A stretch of DNA of 43,074 nucleotides, taken from positions 1 to 43,074 of the forward strand of contig CAMCQY010000014.1 of the NCBI GenBank assembly GCA_945877135.1, given 5' to 3'. Of this stretch, positions 4,688 through 43,074 are shown piece by piece. The translations under genes and the position numbers were made by a program. The notes under the pieces were generated by a model. That model did no database searches and was not told where the DNA came from. It worked only from the letters and a program-made list of their open reading frames with translations. Each line of letters begins with the position of its first letter. Position 1 is the stretch's first letter. This stretch comes from Candidatus Kuenenia stuttgartensis (GTDB lineage: Bacteria > Planctomycetota > Planctomycetia > Pirellulales > UBA1268).

Positions 4688-5416
4688 ATGTTCGACTGGT
4701 TTGAGCGGGGTTCCTACCTCGGCATCGTGGTGTTTTTGACGCTCACTGGCATCGGTCTGCCCGTGCCGGAGGAGGTGCCGATCGTGGCCGCCGGTGTGGC
4801 CAGCAGGCTGTCTCAACTGAAGTGGTATTACGCGTTGCCCGCCTGCATGGTGGGGGCATTGCTCGGCGACAGCCTGATGTATGCCATCGGCCGGTTCTTC
4901 GGAGCCCGGATTCTCAAGGAGCATCCATGGTGGTCGGGCTTTCTCACGCCTGAACGCGAACGGACGATCGAAAACCTGCTCCGCAAGCACGGAATCAAAG
5001 CGTTTTTCGTGGCCCGGTTTCTGGTGGGGCTCCGCAGCCCCTTCTATCTGACGGCCGGCATCCTCAAGGTGAAGTATCGCTGGTTCCTGCTGGCTGATTT
5101 CATCTGCGCGTCGATCGTCATCGGTGGCTTTTTTGGTCTGGCCTACCTGTTTGGAGAACGGATCACCGGCCTCATCCAGTCGGCAACCCGTGGGTTCACG
5201 GCGATTACGATCGCGATGGCGGTCGTTGCCCTCACCGTGATCGCCTTCTTCTCCTTCCGGCAACGGCGGATTCGCATGCTCGATCAGGATCCGGAGTCGC
5301 TCTTCGACAACCGGGAGATCCTGCTCGGCCCCGCCGCCGACCGGATCGCCGACGCCGTCGCCCTCGGCGACAGCCGGCACACCGAGCACGACCGGCCGTC
5401 CGGGCCGAGAGACTGA
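4688..5416 (+). CDS. DedA family membrane protein
   Basis: The track's frame opens at 4595, but the 31 extra residues look non-coding and lie on the apbE terminator. The ATG at 4688 gives MFDWFERGSYLGIVVFLTLTGIGLPVPEEVP, the standard DedA start with its re-entrant proline segment. About 242 residues with five or six hydrophobic stretches. Conserved DedA features are present: 'GLPVPEE', 'GALLGDSLMYAIGRFFG' (G.xxGD..gY..GR..G), and 'FFVARFLVGLRSPFYLTAGILKVKYRWFLLAD' (F.gRF.p..R.......aG). DedA proteins act in membrane lipid and proton-motive-force homeostasis, and several are lipid carrier flippases. The C-terminal 45 residues are polar and cytoplasmic. Confidence 0.92.
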   Translation: MFDWFERGSYLGIVVFLTLTGIGLPVPEEVPIVAAGVASRLSQLKWYYALPACMVGALLGDSLMYAIGRFFGARILKEHPWWSGFLTPERERTIENLLRKHGIKAFFVARFLVGLRSPFYLTAGILKVKYRWFLLADFICASIVIGGFFGLAYLFGERITGLIQSATRGFTAITIAMAVVALTVIAFFSFRQRRIRMLDQDPESLFDNREILLGPAADRIADAVALGDSRHTEHDRPSGPRD

Positions 5417-5445
5417 GAGCTTCGGCCGATCGGTGTGTGAGGCCT

Positions 5446-5464
5446 GTGCCGATTCTGTCGGCAC
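5446..5464 (+). terminator. hairpin downstream of dedA (possible terminator without T-run)
   Basis: GTGCCGA-TTCTG-TCGGCAC is a perfect 7-bp inverted repeat, 29 bp after the dedA stop. No T-run follows, so it could be a Rho-dependent or processing hairpin rather than an intrinsic terminator. Confidence 0.35.
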
Positions 5465-5487
5465 GAGGGTGACGTCTGGGCAGGATT

Positions 5488-5515
5488 GTCGCCCTGCGGC
5501 GACTTTGCTGTCGCC
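5488..5515 (+). promoter_or_regulatory. two mutually exclusive hairpins in the sigma-54 regulator leader
   Basis: The sequence GTCGCC-CTGC-GGCGAC-TTTGCT-GTCGCC contains three copies of one 6-base arm in alternating orientation. The middle arm can pair with either the upstream or the downstream copy, giving two exclusive hairpins. It lies 67 bp before the regulator start at 5582. It may be an RNA switch or a pair of operator half-sites; no ligand can be guessed. Confidence 0.3.
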
Positions 5516-5581
5516 GGATTGCGACCTAAAGACATGGTGGAGACTTTTCTCGTCAGCACCTTTCCTCCCCAGGATGCCACC

Positions 5582-7003
5582 ATGATCCGCCCCACGGCGC
5601 CGGTCGATCGCCCCTCCAACCCGGGACGTGTCCTTGTGGTGGACGACGACCGCCGCGTGGCATCCCGTACCGCCCAGTGGCTCTGCAGCCTCGGTTGGCA
5701 TGCGAGCGCCGTCAGCCGCGCCGAGGAGGCGCTGCCGCTTCTCGCCCGCGAGCCCTATGTCGCCTGCATCGTTGACGGTCTGCTGGCAGGGAATGGGGCT
5801 GCTCGAATCGCGGCCAGCCTGCGACTTGCTGCCACGGGCACCGGACTGGTGATCACGATGCCGGAGGCTCCTGCCACGTCGATGGCCCCGGGCATCGATC
5901 CCGATGCGATCGTCCTCACGCCGGCACGCGATGCGGCCCTGCTGGCCGCGCTCGACACGGCGTTCGCGGCCGCCACGCGTCGTGCTGCGGCCGCCGAGGC
6001 CCAGCCCCCGACGCCGAAACTGCTCGGCTCGTCGGCGGCGATGCAGCACGTGCTCGACCTCGTGGCCCGGCTCGCCGATGCCCCGGCGACGCTGCTCATC
6101 ACAGGGGAGAGCGGCACGGGCAAGTCGCTCGTGGCCCGTGAGATCCATCGGGCCAGCCGGCGTCGCGGGAAGCGGTTCGTGGAAGTGGCCTGCGGTTGCC
6201 TCAGTGAAACGCTGCTCGAAAGCGAGCTCTTCGGCCACGTTGCCGGTGCCTTCACTGGCGCCACGGCTGACCGTGACGGAAAATTCCGCCAGGCCGATGG
6301 CGGAACCATCTTTCTCGACGAGATCGCCACCGCGTCTCCTGCCATGCAGGTGAAGCTGCTGCGGGTGCTTCAGGACCTGCGTTTCGAGTCGGTGGGTGGC
6401 TCGCAGACGCATGCAGTCGATGCGCGTGTGATCCTGGCCACCAACGAGGACCTCGCGGCGCTCGTGGCAGCGGGCACGTTTCGCGCCGATCTTTTCTGGC
6501 GAGTGAACGTGATCACGATCGAAATGCCCACGCTCCGGGATCGGGCCAGCGACATCCCGATGCTCGCTGAGCATTTTCGGGCCGCCGCAGTGGCCCGCGG
6601 CGGCCGCGAGGTGGAGGGATTCTCACCCGCGGCCCTGGAGGCCCTCGCGAGGTATCGCTGGCCGGGCAACGTCCGCGAACTCGAGCACGCGGTGGAATAC
6701 GCGGTGTTTCTGGGGCGTGGGGCATGGATCGGAGCCGCCGACCTGCCGCCCGCGGTCAGGCTCGCCGGCGCGGGGGATGGAGGTGAGATGGTGGCGGCTT
6801 GTGCCGCCGCCGCGGGATCGCTCAAGACCTCGCTGAAGACATCGATGGCCCATCCGGAGCGGCGGCTGATCATTGAGGCGTTGGAGCGATCCAACTGGCG
6901 GCGGGACGCCGCTGCCAGGGCCCTCGGCATCAACCGTACCACGCTCTATAAGAAGCTGAAGCGGCTGGGCATGAGTCTCGCCGAGCTGCAGCCGGCGAGG
7001 TAG
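5582..7003 (+). CDS. sigma-54-dependent response regulator (NtrC-type)
   Basis: 473 residues from the ATG at 5582; the track's extra 32 residues lie over leader hairpins. The receiver domain (about 15-125) has the acidic pair (VVDDD) and phospho-acceptor Asp (IVDGLL). The usual Lys near its end is Thr ('VLTPARD' in place of a K-P pair), so phosphorylation chemistry may be altered. The AAA+ domain (about 145-380) has Walker A GESGTGKS, the sigma-54 contact motif GAFTGA intact, Walker [10 protein letters not shown] and the '[13 protein letters not shown]' sensor region. A Fis-type HTH ends the protein ([22 protein letters not shown]). The linker contains a duplicated SLKTSLKTS. No histidine kinase is adjacent, so its partner is elsewhere. 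Confidence 0.93.
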
Positions 7004-7026
7004 GGGGGCGCAACGGGGACGCGGGA

Positions 7027-7091
7027 TCCTCTCGCTTGCGCTTCGGGCTTGGATGGACGTCCTCATCCAAGCCCGCAGCGCCAGCAAGGGA
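7027..7091. repeat. interspersed palindromic element, family P, copy 1 (L-R orientation)
   Basis: Left arm TCCTCTCGCTTGCGCTTCGG...GGATG and right arm CATCCAAGCCC...CAAGGG are near-complementary across an 8-base apex. The copy lies 24 bp after the stop of the sigma-54 regulator and about 100 bp before the TIM-barrel gene. The track ORFs that start here (LGWTSSSKP, IQARSASKG) are read-throughs of the repeat, not genes. Confidence 0.85.
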
Positions 7092-7196
7092 AATGCGGGT
7101 GGCCGGCCCAGCTTCCACCCCCCGCTTCAAAAAGTGGCCGCTTTCGGTCATACTGCCACGCCCCAGCCTTCACGAACACAGGAGATTTTCCCCAGG

Positions 7197-8132
7197 ATGT
7201 TCCGCAACCTCAGCACGTTTGGCCTGCCGCTTTCCGGACGCCCCAGCGAACTCATCGAACTGGCCCTGTCGTTCGGCTTCGACGCGATGGACATCGACCT
7301 CGTCGATTTTCAGCAGCAGGCAGAGACCTTCGGCGTGCCCCATGCCCGCCGGCTGATGGTGAGCGCGCGGCTGAAGTGCGGCGTGTTTCGACTCCCCGTG
7401 ACGCTCGATGCGGATGACGCGACCTTCAATGCAGAAATGGCGCTCCTGCCGAAACGGCTCGAGTTTGCCCAGGCGACCGAGGCCACCCGTGCGGTCGCCT
7501 CGATTGCGGCCGCATCCGACGAACATTCCTTCAAGGACTTCTTCGAGCAGTACCGCACGCGGCTCGACACCATCGGCGGCATGCTCGATCCCCATGGCAT
7601 TTCGCTCGGTCTGGCGATCACACCCGAGGCTGAGGCCCGCGCTGAGAAGACGCATCAGTTCGTGCATACCTTCGAAGGACTGCTCGGCCTGTTGGCCGTG
7701 TCGCATCCCCGCGTTGGCGCGGTGGTCGATTCCTGGGCCCTGCACGTCACGGGCGAACCGCTCGAGATGATCACGAAGGTGCCAAAGGGTCGGATCGTGG
7801 AAGTTCGGCTGTCCGATGCCCCCCGCGACGTGGCAGCGGCGGCACTCACGCACGCGCAGCGGCTGATGCCGGGCGATACCGGGGTGATCAATTCCGCCGC
7901 CGTGCTGACGCAGGCGAAGGCCGCCGGCTTCGATGGACCGGTGACGCCGTGGGCCGATCGCTCCACGCTGGCCGGCCGCGGCCGCGAACGGATCGTCAAG
8001 GTGGCCGGCGATCGGCTGGAAGCAGTCTGGAAGGAGGCCGGCCTGCCGATCGTGCCGCGGTGGTTCACGCCCGTCGCCAAGGACGCCTTCGGCCGTCCGC
8101 TCAACGAAGAAATCTTCGCCGGCGCGGAGTAA
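7197..8132 (+). CDS. sugar phosphate isomerase/epimerase-like TIM-barrel protein
   Basis: The track frame opens at 7053 inside the palindromic repeat. The ATG at 7197 is preferred because it is preceded by an AGGAG about 12 bases upstream and starts the conserved fold (MFRNLSTFGLPLSGRPSELIELALSFGFDAMDIDLVDF). 311 residues. The beta-alpha pattern 'ELIELALSFGFDAMDID' at the start and 'GVINSAAVLTQAKAAGFDGPVTPWAD' near the end is typical of AP endonuclease family 2 / xylose isomerase-like TIM barrels. The metal-ligand residues (E-D-H-E) are not easy to place, so catalytic activity is uncertain. It ends 6 bp from the convergent transglutaminase-like gene. Confidence 0.78.
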   Translation: MFRNLSTFGLPLSGRPSELIELALSFGFDAMDIDLVDFQQQAETFGVPHARRLMVSARLKCGVFRLPVTLDADDATFNAEMALLPKRLEFAQATEATRAVASIAAASDEHSFKDFFEQYRTRLDTIGGMLDPHGISLGLAITPEAEARAEKTHQFVHTFEGLLGLLAVSHPRVGAVVDSWALHVTGEPLEMITKVPKGRIVEVRLSDAPRDVAAAALTHAQRLMPGDTGVINSAAVLTQAKAAGFDGPVTPWADRSTLAGRGRERIVKVAGDRLEAVWKEAGLPIVPRWFTPVAKDAFGRPLNEEIFAGAE

Positions 8133-13557: not shown

Positions 13558-13683
13558 ATGTCCTCTCGCTTGCGCTTCGGGCTTGCATGGGAGCGCGGAT
13601 GTCCTCTCGCTTGCGCTTCGGGCTTGCATGGGAGCCGGGCGGCGTGACCGCCCTTCATCCAAGCCCGCAGCGCAAGCAAGGGA
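13558..13683. repeat. interspersed palindromic element, family P, copy 2 (left arm duplicated)
   Basis: The left arm occurs twice as a 41-bp direct repeat (units at 13558-13598 and 13599-13639), then a right arm at 13656-13683. The apex carries its own perfect stem GGGCGG-CGTGA-CCGCCC. It lies between the convergent mnmE-like and der genes, beginning 12 bp after the former's stop. Confidence 0.88.
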
Positions 13684-17413: not shown

Positions 17414-17492
17414 CATCCAAGCCCGAAGCGCGAGCGAGGGACGGCGTGATCCGAGACCCGGATTTCCCTCGCTTGCGCTTCGGGCTTGGATG
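17414..17492. repeat. interspersed palindromic element, family P, copy 3 (near-perfect arms)
   Basis: Right-type arm CATCCAAGCCCGAAGCGCGAG... at 17414-17441 and left-type arm ...GCTTGCGCTTCGGGCTTGG at 17463-17492. Between them sits a small stem ATCCG-AGACC-CGGAT. Unlike the other copies, the two arms pair across the position that is otherwise mismatched. It lies between the stop of the Gfo/Idh gene and the start of ald, both on the minus strand. Confidence 0.83.
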
Positions 17493-20361: not shown

Positions 20362-20430
20362 TTCCTCTCGCTTGCGCTTCGGGCTTGGATGGGAGCGGGT
20401 ATCATCCAAGCCCGCAGCGCAAGCAAGGGA
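20362..20430. repeat. interspersed palindromic element, family P, copy 4
   Basis: Left arm at 20362-20391, right arm CATCCAAGCCCGCAGCGCAA... at 20403-20430, 11-base apex. It lies between the convergent CCA/poly(A) gene and scpB. Same orientation as copies 1 and 2. Confidence 0.87.
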
Positions 20431-33259: not shown

Positions 33260-33468
33260 CATCCAAGCCCGCAGCGCGAGCAGGGCAAATGTGGGTTGTT
33301 GCCGGATAGCGACGCGCCGCCGGGACGGCAAAGCTTCCGTCGCTCGGAGCTTCCGACTTGTCACTGGGGACGGTGTGGCACGCACAACAAGTCGGACATC
33401 CTCCTCGTCTCCTCCAGCTTCGCCGATCCCGGCTCCCTTCATCCAAGCCCGCAGCGCAAGCGAGGGAA
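33260..33468. repeat. family P half-arms, copies 5 and 6 (partial, no partners)
   Basis: Two right-arm copies (CATCCAAGCCCGCAGCGC...) at 33260-33288 and 33440-33468, 180 bp apart in the same orientation and each without a matching left arm. The second is followed at about 33502 by a decayed left-like arm (TTCCCTCGCTGGCGCGTCGG). Confidence 0.7.
33331..33396. repeat. composite inverted repeat (AAGCTTCCG.. and TCCGACTTGT..ACAAGTCGGA)
   Basis: A bulged hairpin (33331-33352) is followed immediately by a second inverted repeat with perfect 10-bp arms 25 bases apart. This does not resemble family P and may be a distinct small repeat. Confidence 0.55.
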
Positions 33469-33605
33469 ATCGCCATCCATCACCCAGAAATCAGCAGCGG
33501 ATTCCCTCGCTGGCGCGTCGGGATTGTATTTGCATAGAGAAGAGCGATTGCCGCGGTTGTTCCGAGCCGTACAGAAGCCCGGAGCGTGAGCGATAGGACG
33601 GGGAT

Positions 33606-38562: not shown

Positions 38563-39402
38563 ATGCACATCAAGCGTGCCCTCATCACCGCCGCCGGCAG
38601 GGAGCAGCAACGGCTGCCGCTCCAGCGGCTCGTGGACCGGGACGGCATTCCCAAGACTGCGCTCGAAATCATTGTCGAGGAGGCCGTGGCGGCTGGGGCC
38701 CACGAGGTGGGAATCGTCGTGCGGCCCGGCGACGAGGCGGACTTCCGCGCGGCTGCCGGCAGTGCTGCCTCGCGGCTCGAACTGATTCCCCAGCCTGAGC
38801 CACTCGGCTACGGCAACGCTGTCAGCGTCGCCCGCGGCTTCATCAACGACGAGCCATTCCTGCATTTCGTGGGCGACCATCTCTACGTGAGCGACAGCGA
38901 TCGCCGCTGCGGGCAGCAACTCGTGGCAGTCGCCGAGGCGGAACAGTGCAGCGTGTCGGCCGTGCAGCCGACGCGGGAGAGCATGCTGCCCTACTTTGGC
39001 GCGATCGGCGGCCGCCGGGTGCCCCAGACGAAGAATCTCTACGAGATCGACACCGTCCTCGAAAAGCCGACGCCCACGCAGGCCGAGCAGGAACTGATCG
39101 TGCCGGGGCTCCGTGCCGGCCATTATCTCTGCTTCTTCGGCATGCACGTGCTCACGCCCGTGATCTTCGACCTGCTCGATGCGCTTGGCGACTCAGGCCG
39201 CCGTCAGGTCTCGCCCGCGCTTGCCATGCTGGCTGGCCGCGAGCGGTATCTGGCCTACCAGGTTGCTGGCAATCGCTCCAACCTCGGCGTCACCTACGGC
39301 CTGCTCCTCGCGCAACTTGCGCTCGGCCTCTCGGGCAAGGATCGCGGCGACATCCTCAGCCAGCTCGTTGACCTGCTGGCCCGCCAGCCTCACGCCACAT
39401 GA
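38563..39402 (+). CDS. GalU-like sugar-1-phosphate nucleotidyltransferase
   Basis: 279 residues from the ATG at 38563; the track's TTG start at 38521 lies in the hairpin. The fold is that of UTP-glucose-1-phosphate uridylyltransferases. '[23 protein letters not shown]...[24 protein letters not shown]' replaces the usual GxGTRxLP loop by GREQQRLP. Other anchors are '[17 protein letters not shown]' (GlGhAV), '[12 protein letters not shown]' (GD.l), '[16 protein letters not shown]' (VEKP), and '[21 protein letters not shown]'. The altered nucleotide loop may change base choice or activity. The stop overlaps the start of the next gene (ATGA), so the two proteins probably work together. Confidence 0.88.
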
Positions 39403-42400
39403 GCCGCCCCGTGGTCGCCAGTCGTTTGGTCGCGATCATCGAGTCGGACGAGCCGGCGATCCGCGATCAGTCGCTCGAGAGTGTCTGCGCCGCGGCTACG
39501 GCCGACGAACTGCTCGCCGAGGCGGCGGCGCTCGAGGCCTTCCGCCAGACGAGCACGAGCCTCTACCACTGCGTGCGCGGGCTGTTTTTCCTGGCCGGCA
39601 TTCATCGCTTCCAGCTTCCCGCCCGGCTGTCGGCCGGCGGTCGCGCCGCCGCCCTCGTTCCCCATGCCGGCTACGACCATTTGCTCCATCGGCGGTTCGA
39701 GGAGGCGATCGCCGCGTTTCTGGAGAGCCAGCGGGAGCATGGCCCGTCCGACGCGATCTCCAGCGCCCTCGCGGTCAGCTACCGTGAACTCGGCCTGCAG
39801 ACGCTCGCCAATCAGGTCCGCAAGAGCGTGCGATCGCTGCGGGGCAACCAGTGGATGTTTCGCGTCGGGCATCCGGCCGATCACGCCCTCCGCATCCGCC
39901 CCGAACTGCTGGCCCGCAGCGAGAACGGCACCTTTCCGCTGCTTCGCGAATCGACGCCTGTGCGAATGGACCTCTCGCACTCCTGCTGGAGCGACGTCTT
40001 CTTCCTCGGCATGGACTATCCCGAGGGGGCGCGGGTGCTCAACGTGTCGATCGATCTGGGCGTGCACGGCCGTGATGCCGCGCCCAAGCCGCCGGTCGAG
40101 GCCTATCTGCGGGTGATCGACAGCCCGGTGCTACGGCTCACGAGCGTTGACCTCGCCACGACCGCCGAGATCGCCGACCTTGGCGAGGTGTTCGACTTCG
40201 CCCGCGACTATCTCGGGCTCCTGAAGGCGGCGGTGATCGCCGCGGGCATCGTGCCGCCCGGCGTCGAGGGATCGGGGGCGAGCCTCGCTGATCTGCTCGC
40301 CCGCGTTGTCGGCCCCGGGCATGGCCTCGAGATCGTCAGCAGCGTCAACAACATTCCCAAGGGCTCGCGGCTGGCCGTCTCCACCAACCTGCTCGCCGCT
40401 CTCATCGCCGTCTGCATGCGGGCGACCGGCCAGGCCCAGTCGCTCACCGGACAGCTCACGGAGCCCGAACGCCGGCTCGTGGCGGCGCGGGCCATCCTCG
40501 GTGAATGGCTCGGTGGGAGCGGCGGCGGCTGGCAGGACTCCGGCGGCGTCTGGCCGGCGGCCAAGCTGATCCGCGGCGTGGTGGCAACGGAGCACGATCC
40601 CGAACATGGCACGAGCCGCGGCCGTCTGCTGCCGACCCACGAACCGGTTCGTGTCGGCTCGACCCTGCAGGACTCGCTCGTGCTCGTCCATGGCGGCATG
40701 GCGCAGAACGTGGGCCCGATCCTGGAGATGGTGACGGAGAAATACCTGCTGCGGTCGGCTGCCGAGTGGCAGGCGCGGCAGGATGCGGCCGGCGTGCTCG
40801 ACGAGATCATCGCGGCCGTCGAAGCGGGCGACATGCGCCGCATCGGCGATGCCACGTTTCGCAACTTCGTCGGCCCGATCCAGACGATCATTCCGGGAGC
40901 CACGAACCTCTACACCGAGACGATCATCCGCCGTGTGCGGGAGCGGTTTGGCGACGATTTCTGGGGCTTCTGGATGCTCGGCGGCATGTCGGGGGGCGGG
41001 ATGGGATTCATCGTGGCGCCCCACATCAAGGCGGCCGCGCAGCAGGCGCTCGGCGAGATCATGGCCGCCACGAAGCGGGAGCTGCAGCATTCGCTGCCCT
41101 TCGCGATGGAGCCGGTGGTCTATGACTTTGCGGTGAACGAACGCGGCACCTGGTGCGATCTTCTCGCCGGCACCGTCGCCCTGATGCCTGCCGCCTATTA
41201 CGCGCTCACGCTCCCCGAACTGTTGAAGGCCGACCGGCTCGCGCTTCCGGCCTCGCGCCGCGCCGAACTCGATGCCTTCGGCGCCGCCTGCCGCACGCAG
41301 CCGGAGCTGGCGGGCATGGTGAACACGCTCTTCGATCGACTGTTTCCGCGTGGCGACGGGGCCCACGGCAATGCAGGCGAACTCCGCCGGCTCCTGGCGG
41401 ACCTCGGCTTCGACGACGTGCAGCACGAACAGATCCGCGCCGACCTGCGGGCTGGTCGGATCGGCTTGGCGCAGAACCGTCTCCCTGCCGCAACCTCGAT
41501 CGAGGACGTGCACAATGAAGACGTCGCCTTCGCCGACGAGCAGTCGGGAGATGACGCGAGCCGGCAGCGTGGGCTCGACGCCCTGCGGCGTGGCGAGGTG
41601 GCGGTGGTGACGATGGCGGCGGGCGTCGGTAGCCGCTGGACGCAGGGAGCGGGCGTGGTGAAGGCGCTGCATCCCTTTTGCAAGCTGGCCGGCCGGCATC
41701 GGACCTTTCTCGACGTGCACCTCGCGAAATCGCGGCGGACGGGCCGGCTCGCGGCAATGCCCGTCCCCCACGTGATCACCACGAGCTATCTCACGCACCG
41801 CCAGATCGAGGCATTCGGGCTCGACACGGCCGGCGTCGATGCGGTGCTCTCGCCTGGCAGGGCGGTCGGCCTGCGGATGATTCCCATGACCCGCGACCTG
41901 CGGTTCGCCTGGGAGGAGCTTTCCCATCAGGTGCTCGACGAACAGAAGGAGAAAGTCCGCGACAGCCTCCGTGCGGCATTGGTCGCCTGGGCCGAGCAGG
42001 CCGGCGAGGGGGCCGACTACACCGACAACACACCGGGGCAGTGCCTCCATCCCGTCGGCCATTGGTTCGAGGTGGCCACCATGCTCCGCAACGGTGTGCT
42101 CGAGCGGCTGCTCGGCGACCGGCCGCAGCTTCGCTGGCTGTTCCTGCACAACATCGACACCGTCGGCGCCGACCTTGATCCCGCCCTGCTTGGCCGGCAC
42201 ATCGCGGGCGGCTCCTGCCTGACGTTCGAGGTGATCCCGCGGCGGATCGAGGATCGTGGCGGCGGGCTCGCCCGCGTCAATGGCCGGCCCAGGATCGTGG
42301 AGGGGCTGGCGATGCCCCGGGAGGAGGACGAGTTTCAGCTGCGGTTCTACAACACGCTCTCCACGTGGATCGACATCGACCAACTGCTCGCCGCATTCGG

Positions 42401-42710
42401 CCTGGCTCGCAAAGATCTCGGGAACGAGGAGAAGGTGGCCACAGCTATCCGTACCTTGGCGGCCAAGATGCCGACCTACGTGACGCTGAAGGACGTGAAG
42501 AAGCGGTGGGGCCACGGACAGGAAGACGTGTTTCCCGTGGCGCAGTTCGAGAAGCTCTGGGGCGACATGACGGCCCTGTCCGAGATCGGCTCGCGATACG
42601 TGGTGGTGCCGCGTCTCCGTGGCCAGCAGCTGAAGGACATCGCGCAGCTCGACGGCTGGCTTCGCGACGGGTCAGCTGCCTACGTCGAGTCGCTCGGCGA
42701 CTGGGCGTAG
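39399..42710 (+). CDS. fusion of a GHMP sugar kinase and a UDPGP-type sugar pyrophosphorylase
   Basis: 1103 residues. Residues 1-180 are an unrecognised helical domain. Residues about 185-600 are a GHMP kinase of the fucokinase/heptose-kinase branch: '[17 protein letters not shown]' (RxDLaGGWtD), '[26 protein letters not shown]' (IPKGSGLGTSSiLA), '[12 protein letters not shown]' (GGGWQDQ.GG), '[15 protein letters not shown]' (GAGGGGF). The ATP loop is degenerate (GSRLAVST). Residues about 730-1100 are a UDPGP-type pyrophosphorylase: '[12 protein letters not shown]', '[17 protein letters not shown]', '[18 protein letters not shown]', '[20 protein letters not shown]'. FKP of Bacteroides has the reverse order. 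It should phosphorylate a free sugar and then activate it as a UDP-sugar. Confidence 0.93.
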
Positions 42711-42764: not shown

Positions 42765-42847
42765 TTCCCTTGCTTGCGCTGCGGGCTTGGATGAGGGGCG
42801 ATCACGCCCCCCGTCTCCCATGCAAGCCCGAAGCGCAAGCGAGAGGA
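42765..42847. repeat. interspersed palindromic element, family P, copy 7 (reversed orientation)
   Basis: This copy runs in the opposite orientation: the right-type arm comes first (42765-42793) and the left-type arm second (42819-42847). The apex has its own stem GGGGCG-ATCA-CGCCCC, different in sequence from copy 2 but equally paired. It lies after the kinase-pyrophosphorylase gene and before the miaB-type gene. Confidence 0.87.
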
Positions 42848-42926: not shown

Positions 42927-43074
42927 ATGACGAAACGGCTCTGGATCGAAACGGTCGGCTGCCAGATGAACGTGCTCGACAGCGAGCTCGTCGTCGCCGC
43001 GCTGCGCCGGCAGGGCTGGGAGCTGGCGAGCACCACCGCCGAGGCAGACGCCGTCTTTTACAACACCTGCAGCG
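42927..43074 (+). CDS. miaB: MiaB-type tRNA methylthiotransferase (partial, cut by the right edge)
   Basis: The ORF track does not list it because only 49 codons are visible. From the ATG at 42927 it reads 'MTKRLWIETVGCQMNVLDSELVVAALRRQGWELASTTAEADAVFYNTCS', the N-terminal UPF0004 domain of radical-SAM methylthiotransferases. 'T(V/F)GCQMNVLDSE' and 'NTCS' carry two of the three cysteines of the auxiliary 4Fe-4S cluster. The GCQMN form favours MiaB (2-methylthio-N6-isopentenyladenosine in tRNA) over RimO or MtaB, but the radical-SAM core lies outside the window. Confidence 0.9.
   Translation, partial: MTKRLWIETVGCQMNVLDSELVVAALRRQGWELASTTAEADAVFYNTCS

Follow-up and report, generated by a model that had tools for sequence, protein, structure and literature searches.

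The locus at positions 38563 to 42710 of the window, which is the whole 43,074-nucleotide stretch of DNA that we analysed, raises the question of whether a free sugar may be activated to a nucleotide sugar by one polypeptide, and of what the GalU-like protein encoded directly upstream of that polypeptide would contribute. An earlier, sequence-only reading had proposed that the two genes constitute an undescribed system for sugar activation.

The gene pair and its surroundings

The locus has the following layout:

38563-39402, plus strand: GalU-like gene, 279 amino acids, nucleotidyltransferase family; open reading frame without internal stops
39399-42710, plus strand: kinase-pyrophosphorylase fusion gene, 1103 amino acids; open reading frame without internal stops
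39399-39402, plus strand: ATGA overlap of the GalU-like and fusion genes (start ATG, stop TGA), read from the sequence

The ATGA junction had been claimed by the sequence-only reading, and positions 39399-39402 do read ATGA. That reading had also placed a third nucleotidyltransferase gene before the fusion. No such gene was found; the nucleotidyltransferase gene ahead of the fusion is the GalU-like gene itself. Upstream of the pair lie genes for a PAS-GGDEF protein, a methionyl-tRNA formyltransferase and a peptide deformylase. Downstream, at 42927-43074, the start of a gene for a MiaB-like radical-SAM methylthiotransferase (MTKRLWIETVGCQMNVLDSE...) was recognised by eye; it is cut by the contig end.

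Independently of the pair, the window contains 13 copies of a 21-base motif, CAAGCCCGAAGCGCAAGCGAG, at three mismatches or fewer, where none would be expected. The copies are located at 7031-7088, 13565-13680, 17418-17488, 20367-20427, 33444-33526 and 42769-42843, nearly always as two copies in opposite orientation with a few tens of bases between them, and the pair situated 3' of the fusion gene gives a strong hairpin (-68.6 kcal/mol, z -5.6). The element is REP/BIME-like, and a comparison with Rfam gave no match.

Distribution and co-occurrence of the two genes

In 84,980 species genomes, a scan detected at least 552 genome loci with confirmed relatives of the fusion. Those at 43-97% identity share its full-length architecture and keep one full-length open frame, which rules out that the fusion is an artefact of chance or annotation. 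Along with the sequence-only reading came the proposal to look for the same fusion and its neighbours in other planctomycetes; it is present there, and in further phyla as well. Among the best 80 of the at least 552 loci, at least seven phyla are represented by record title, that is, by the submitters' bin names taken at face value: Planctomycetota, Verrucomicrobiota, Chloroflexota, Acidobacteriota, Armatimonadota, Kiritimatiellota and Lentisphaerota. The module makes up a family conserved across several phyla, not one particular to planctomycetes. In a quick tree, the clade of the window is planctomycete with one verrucomicrobial-titled sister, and the labels change more often than a purely vertical history needs; horizontal transfer is likely.

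Two outlying copies were also recorded. A plasmid of Hymenobacter volaticus (Bacteroidota; NZ_CP095065, 13026-17309, our locus L203) carries a copy of the pair in which the fusion is not in one open frame. It adjoins a sugar phosphate nucleotidyltransferase that corresponds to the GalU-like neighbour and has kept the lysine segment described below. In the deep-branching relative L194 (G593:C101, 2152-6420, minus strand), the kinase and UDPGP parts are separate open reading frames; the UDPGP frame starts at an ATGA overlap and the kinase frame contains a break, for which an assembly error is possible.

The two genes are closely associated, as the sequence-only reading had claimed from a single locus, and both co-occurrence and adjacency bear this out. 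Among 398 genomes of the window's class, the fusion was found in 116 and the GalU-like gene in 109; every genome with the GalU-like gene also has the fusion (109/109), and 109 of the 116 with the fusion have the GalU-like gene (Fisher p 3e-90, kinship ignored). The genes are adjacent and on the same strand in 96 of the 109 class genomes with both, and the seven class genomes with only the fusion contain fragments or matches at a contig end, judging by the match coordinates. In the window's own family, both genes are present in all 12 carriers, and the other genomes searched have neither. At the best 80 of the at least 552 loci, the GalU-like gene is present in 62 cases, close upstream in 61 and 1.8 kb away in one, and 15 of these 62 homologous pairs overlap by exactly 4 bases. 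Eight of the 18 loci without an adjacent GalU-like gene have less than 350 bases of upstream contig, and a whole-genome search found the gene elsewhere in each of the remaining ten (10/10). In genome G067, the two genes lie 0.92 Mb apart, so that the association outlasts the loss of linkage. The GalU-like match in genome G022 was flagged with one stop, and the length of that match is what one would expect if the stop codon of the gene itself were included.

Genomic neighbourhood

Across the best 80 of the at least 552 loci, no conserved third gene or pathway was found around the pair. Operon-like neighbours are varied, glycosyltransferases being the commonest (6/37). In five of six other loci examined in the window's family (L195, L196, L197, L198 and L200), the pair is flanked by genes for a GT4-type glycosyltransferase and an NAD-dependent epimerase, an arrangement that fits the supply of sugar donors for glycan synthesis; these flanks are absent beside the window's pair and in the window's nearest relative, a sister species. 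One gene of family GH95 (the alpha-L-fucosidase family) occurs among the same-strand neighbours of the pair and, from its length, is probably the 880-residue gene at 5037-7676 of locus L119, 192 bases upstream, in an Akkermansiaceae bin.

The L-fucose isomerase family (PF02952) does not track the pair across families and is strong in a few families only. For the fucose pyrophosphorylase family (PF07959), the window genome gave no match, and a true member scored above the cut-off in one of 149 class genomes, which shows that the pair does not accompany FKP there. The distributions of PF02952 and PF07959 did not single out a substrate.

Domain organisation and predicted structure of the fusion protein

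The fusion protein consists, in this order, of a helical N-terminus, an FKP-type GHMP kinase, a linker and a UDPGP-type pyrophosphorylase:

39399-39950, plus strand: N-terminal domain, residues 1-184, mostly helical and without a Pfam match
39930-41078, plus strand: GHMP kinase of the fucokinase branch, residues ~178-560, from NF009948, PDB matches and structure
41514-42707, plus strand: UDPGP-type pyrophosphorylase, residues ~706-1103, from PF01704, structure and alignments

For residues 186-548, NCBIfam NF009948 gives a match to the FKP kinase half (E 3.6e-22) with 77.9 bits, below the equivalog cut-off of 721, and the same residues match PDB entries 9iip and 5yys, both FKP. Residues 881-996 match UDPGP PF01704 (E 5.7e-9; 35.6 bits, above the cut-off of 22). 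When a profile of 92 homologues was searched against PDB sequences, UDP-glucose pyrophosphorylases (1.1e-16) and FKP (2.9e-12) were found, each on its own half, and among kinases FKP was the only one found. An AlphaFold2 model built from these 92 diverse homologues is confident almost throughout (pLDDT 90.2, pTM 0.90); the 11 close homologues alone gave a pLDDT of 38.7. The model matches the fucokinase part of FKP (9iip) with a TM score of 0.80 by target length and the heptokinase WcbL with 0.79-0.80; the other top PDB matches are FKP and UDP-GlcNAc and UDP-glucose pyrophosphorylases. Thus, NF009948, PF01704 and the predicted structure agree with the earlier claim of a GHMP kinase of the fucokinase branch followed by a UDPGP domain in one 1103-residue chain.

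The active site of the kinase half

Alignment to BfFKP, whose fucose-binding and phosphorylating residues are listed in PMC11982464, equates R189, W197, D199, E369, Q379 and D380 of the fusion with R592, W599, D601, E751, Q761 and D762, respectively. These six residues are invariant in 92/92 sequences, a set that extends down to 43% identity. The position of FKP T602, which contacts O3 of fucose (PMC11982464), is occupied by I in 90 and by V in two of the 92 sequences, the window included, and the segment after WSD reads IFF in the relatives and VFF in the window, against TPP in FKP.

These residues bear on the identity of the sugar. An L-fuco-configured substrate (L-fucose, L-galactose or D-arabinose) would be the likeliest single choice, at somewhat less than even odds, because most of the FKP sugar pocket is preserved, with the stacking Trp and the Asp and Gln contacts to O2-O4. 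It is also quite possible, if short of probable, that both halves are active on a sugar that is not fuco-configured and serve the salvage of a heptose, a uronic acid or a pentose. The replacement of T602, the IFF or VFF segment and the match of the model to heptokinase WcbL all point in that direction; against it stand the WSD and GGGWQD pocket, which is as in FKP, and the retrieval of FKP alone among kinases in the profile search.

The kinase half has the GHMP fold together with motifs 1 and 3. Motif 2 of GHMP kinases holds the nucleotide phosphates, and here it takes an unusual form:

40353-40388, plus strand: kinase motif 2 (phosphate loop), residues 319-330, in a fixed variant form

The motif reads GSRLAVST in 92/92 sequences, in contrast to the GxGLGSS-like pattern and to the FKP form, IPAGSGLGTSS. 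The combination of an unusual form with complete conservation suggests a changed use, not decay. Such a non-canonical loop could mean an altered phosphate donor, or a kinase without activity. In the latter case, the kinase half would serve as a pseudokinase or an allosteric domain: it would bind a sugar or its phosphate and exert control over the UDPGP half. The enzyme would then form a common NDP-sugar (UDP-glucose, for example) from a sugar-1-phosphate produced outside the fusion. We consider this unlikely. It would account for a motif 2 that in none of the 92 sequences follows the GxGLGSS pattern and for the fact that the UDPGP half is nearest to UDP-glucose pyrophosphorylases by sequence. 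However, drift would then be expected at the equivalents of R592, E751 and D762, the catalytic residues in FKP, and of W599, D601 and Q761, its sugar-binding residues; none of these ever varies, and the invariance of the altered loop itself points to use.

The active site of the pyrophosphorylase half

Profile alignment of the second half against UDPGP-type enzymes of related planctomycetes identified four blocks, namely the signature G742-K755, GH (888), NxD (918-920) and the C-terminal lysine K1079, two of which are located as follows:

41622-41663, plus strand: nucleotide-binding signature, residues 742-755, with the spacing of FKP G76/R80/K89
42633-42635, plus strand: K1079, which profile alignment places at the catalytic lysine of UGPase (PVK block); conserved in 91/92

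Residues G742, R746, K755, H888, N918, D920 and K1079 align with their UGPase counterparts and nearly all are invariant (n=92), and by this comparison the pyrophosphorylase active site looks intact. As the second half is nearest to UDP-sugar pyrophosphorylases, UTP would probably be the nucleotide used.

The GalU-like partner protein

The GalU-like protein is a weak match to the GalU model TIGR01099 (80.1 bits, cut-off 326.8), and its nucleotide-binding signature has degenerated:

38587-38655, plus strand: degenerate nucleotide-binding signature, residues 9-31, in place of GalU GxGTRxLPxTK..PKExLP

Across 63 homologues, the GxGTR equivalent reads Gxx-Q-(R/H/Q): the second Gly is kept in 5/63 and the Thr in none (Q in 61/63), and the Arg survives in 48/63, the window having Q instead. 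In addition, the segment with the PKxML lysine is absent from the main clade of partners. This clade is eight residues short relative to the deep relative L187, which has VHKQLHP before the shared VDRDG; the gap depends on VDRDG as anchor, and a free alignment to canonical GalU sets an Arg opposite the lysine. The Hymenobacter relative retains GERLYP and QKAMLP. Since L187 and Hymenobacter both retain the lysine segment, its loss in the main clade looks derived. By contrast, D105 (the metal-site Asp), H106 and EKP (167-169) are invariant in 63/63. The partner keeps the sugar-phosphate side of the fold (EKP, GDH, LGYGHA), with the triphosphate-binding side degraded.

In Escherichia coli GalU, changing T20 and R21 of GxGTR lowered the activity about 500-fold and Vmax by about three orders of magnitude (PMC4643126). 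The same study reports that GalF naturally lacks both the T and the R, that its Vmax is lower than that of GalU by four orders of magnitude, and that it has been proposed to play a regulatory role towards GalU (PMC4643126). The trait that marks GalF, a degenerate GxGTR in a GalU relative, is present in the partner. By analogy with GalF, the partner is most likely a regulatory or structural subunit. The sequence-only reading had the GalU-like protein either supplying or regulating a related nucleotide sugar. Because the nucleotide-binding signature is degenerate, supply is unlikely in this clade, and a regulatory or structural partner is the better fit.

It is improbable, in our view, that the pair gives two products, the GalU-like protein being an active enzyme in its own right that makes a related nucleotide sugar. 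The constancy of D105 and of the EKP lysine (63/63) and the survival of the GxGTR Arg in 48/63 are what such an enzyme would show, and the Hymenobacter relative with its GERLYP and QKAMLP makes an active ancestor plausible. On the other hand, the second Gly and the Thr have gone in nearly all 63 and the Arg in the window, the main clade lacks the PKxML segment, and GalU with the T and R of the motif changed loses most of its activity (PMC4643126). Given the surviving Arg, which the window's partner lacks, some partners may have residual activity.

Proposed function

Based on these features, we propose, at a probability of roughly 0.6, that the pair encodes a bifunctional enzyme, sugar-1-kinase and NDP-sugar pyrophosphorylase in one, together with a GalU-like subunit that is obligate and probably non-catalytic. 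The kinase half would phosphorylate a free sugar at its anomeric carbon using ATP, the UDPGP half would convert the sugar-1-phosphate and an NTP to an NDP-sugar and pyrophosphate, and the obligate GalU-like partner would act as a regulatory or structural subunit, as proposed for GalF with GalU in E. coli. A more far-reaching version seems doubtful: that the pair forms a sugar-salvage system, widespread but unstudied, where the fusion is under the control of an obligate pseudo-pyrophosphorylase, and where a kinase with a remodelled phosphate loop perhaps uses an unusual phosphate donor or leads to a nucleotide sugar other than that of FKP.

Hundreds of environmental genomes, among them Verrucomicrobiota, Planctomycetota and Chloroflexota, carry the module, whose scores against the nearest curated models stay far under the respective cut-offs. 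Should the proposal be true, the module would offer synthesis a route to a nucleotide sugar on one chain, and it would show which sugar these bacteria salvage. Full-text searches of open-access literature returned no study of the module, and neither they nor a 2025 phylogeny of FKP mention a kinase-first UDPGP fusion, although absence from that literature is weak evidence; to that extent, the description of the system as undescribed holds.

Comparison with known systems

FKP of Bacteroides fragilis and the Arabidopsis enzyme FKGP resemble the fusion in their bifunctional salvage architecture and in having a homologous kinase half, whose catalytic residues and most of whose sugar contacts are retained in the fusion. 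The fusion may work like FKP. In BfFKP, however, the pyrophosphorylase precedes the kinase (PMC11982464), whereas the fusion has the kinase first and the pyrophosphorylase last. Its pyrophosphorylase is UDPGP (PF01704) and not the fucose pyrophosphorylase (PF07959), and it has an extra helical N-terminal domain, an altered kinase motif 2 and an obligate GalU-like partner. As it has neither the PF07959 domain nor the domain order of FKP, we do not class it as FKP. If its activities are as proposed, it would represent a second way of activating a sugar on one chain, the order of the domains being reversed and the pyrophosphorylase belonging to a different family.

The order, which the sequence-only reading had correctly described as reversed relative to Bacteroides FKP, is also the reverse of that of zebrafish GKUP (glucuronokinase/UDP-GlcA pyrophosphorylase), in which a GHMP kinase is likewise joined to a sugar nucleotidyltransferase. 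In GKUP, a protein of 619 amino acids, the pyrophosphorylase precedes the kinase: a small bacterial-type nucleotidyltransferase comes first and a glucuronokinase-type kinase last (PMC3938481).

With the UDPGP family (eukaryotic-type UGPase, UAP/AGX and USP), the second half shares the fold, the GxGSR...K signature and the GH, NxD and catalytic-Lys blocks. Unlike these enzymes, it has GHW[YF]E for GHGD, sits behind a kinase and has an FKP-like spacing of the signature.

Finally, the partner resembles GalF in being a relative of GalU with an altered GxGTR, GalF being the member whose activity is very low and whose role is proposed to be regulatory. It differs from GalU and GalF in that it is far more diverged, has lost a whole segment and has a kinase-pyrophosphorylase, not GalU, as its counterpart. 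Provided that the proposed activities hold, it would stand out as a particularly clear example of a degraded enzyme retained as an obligate partner.
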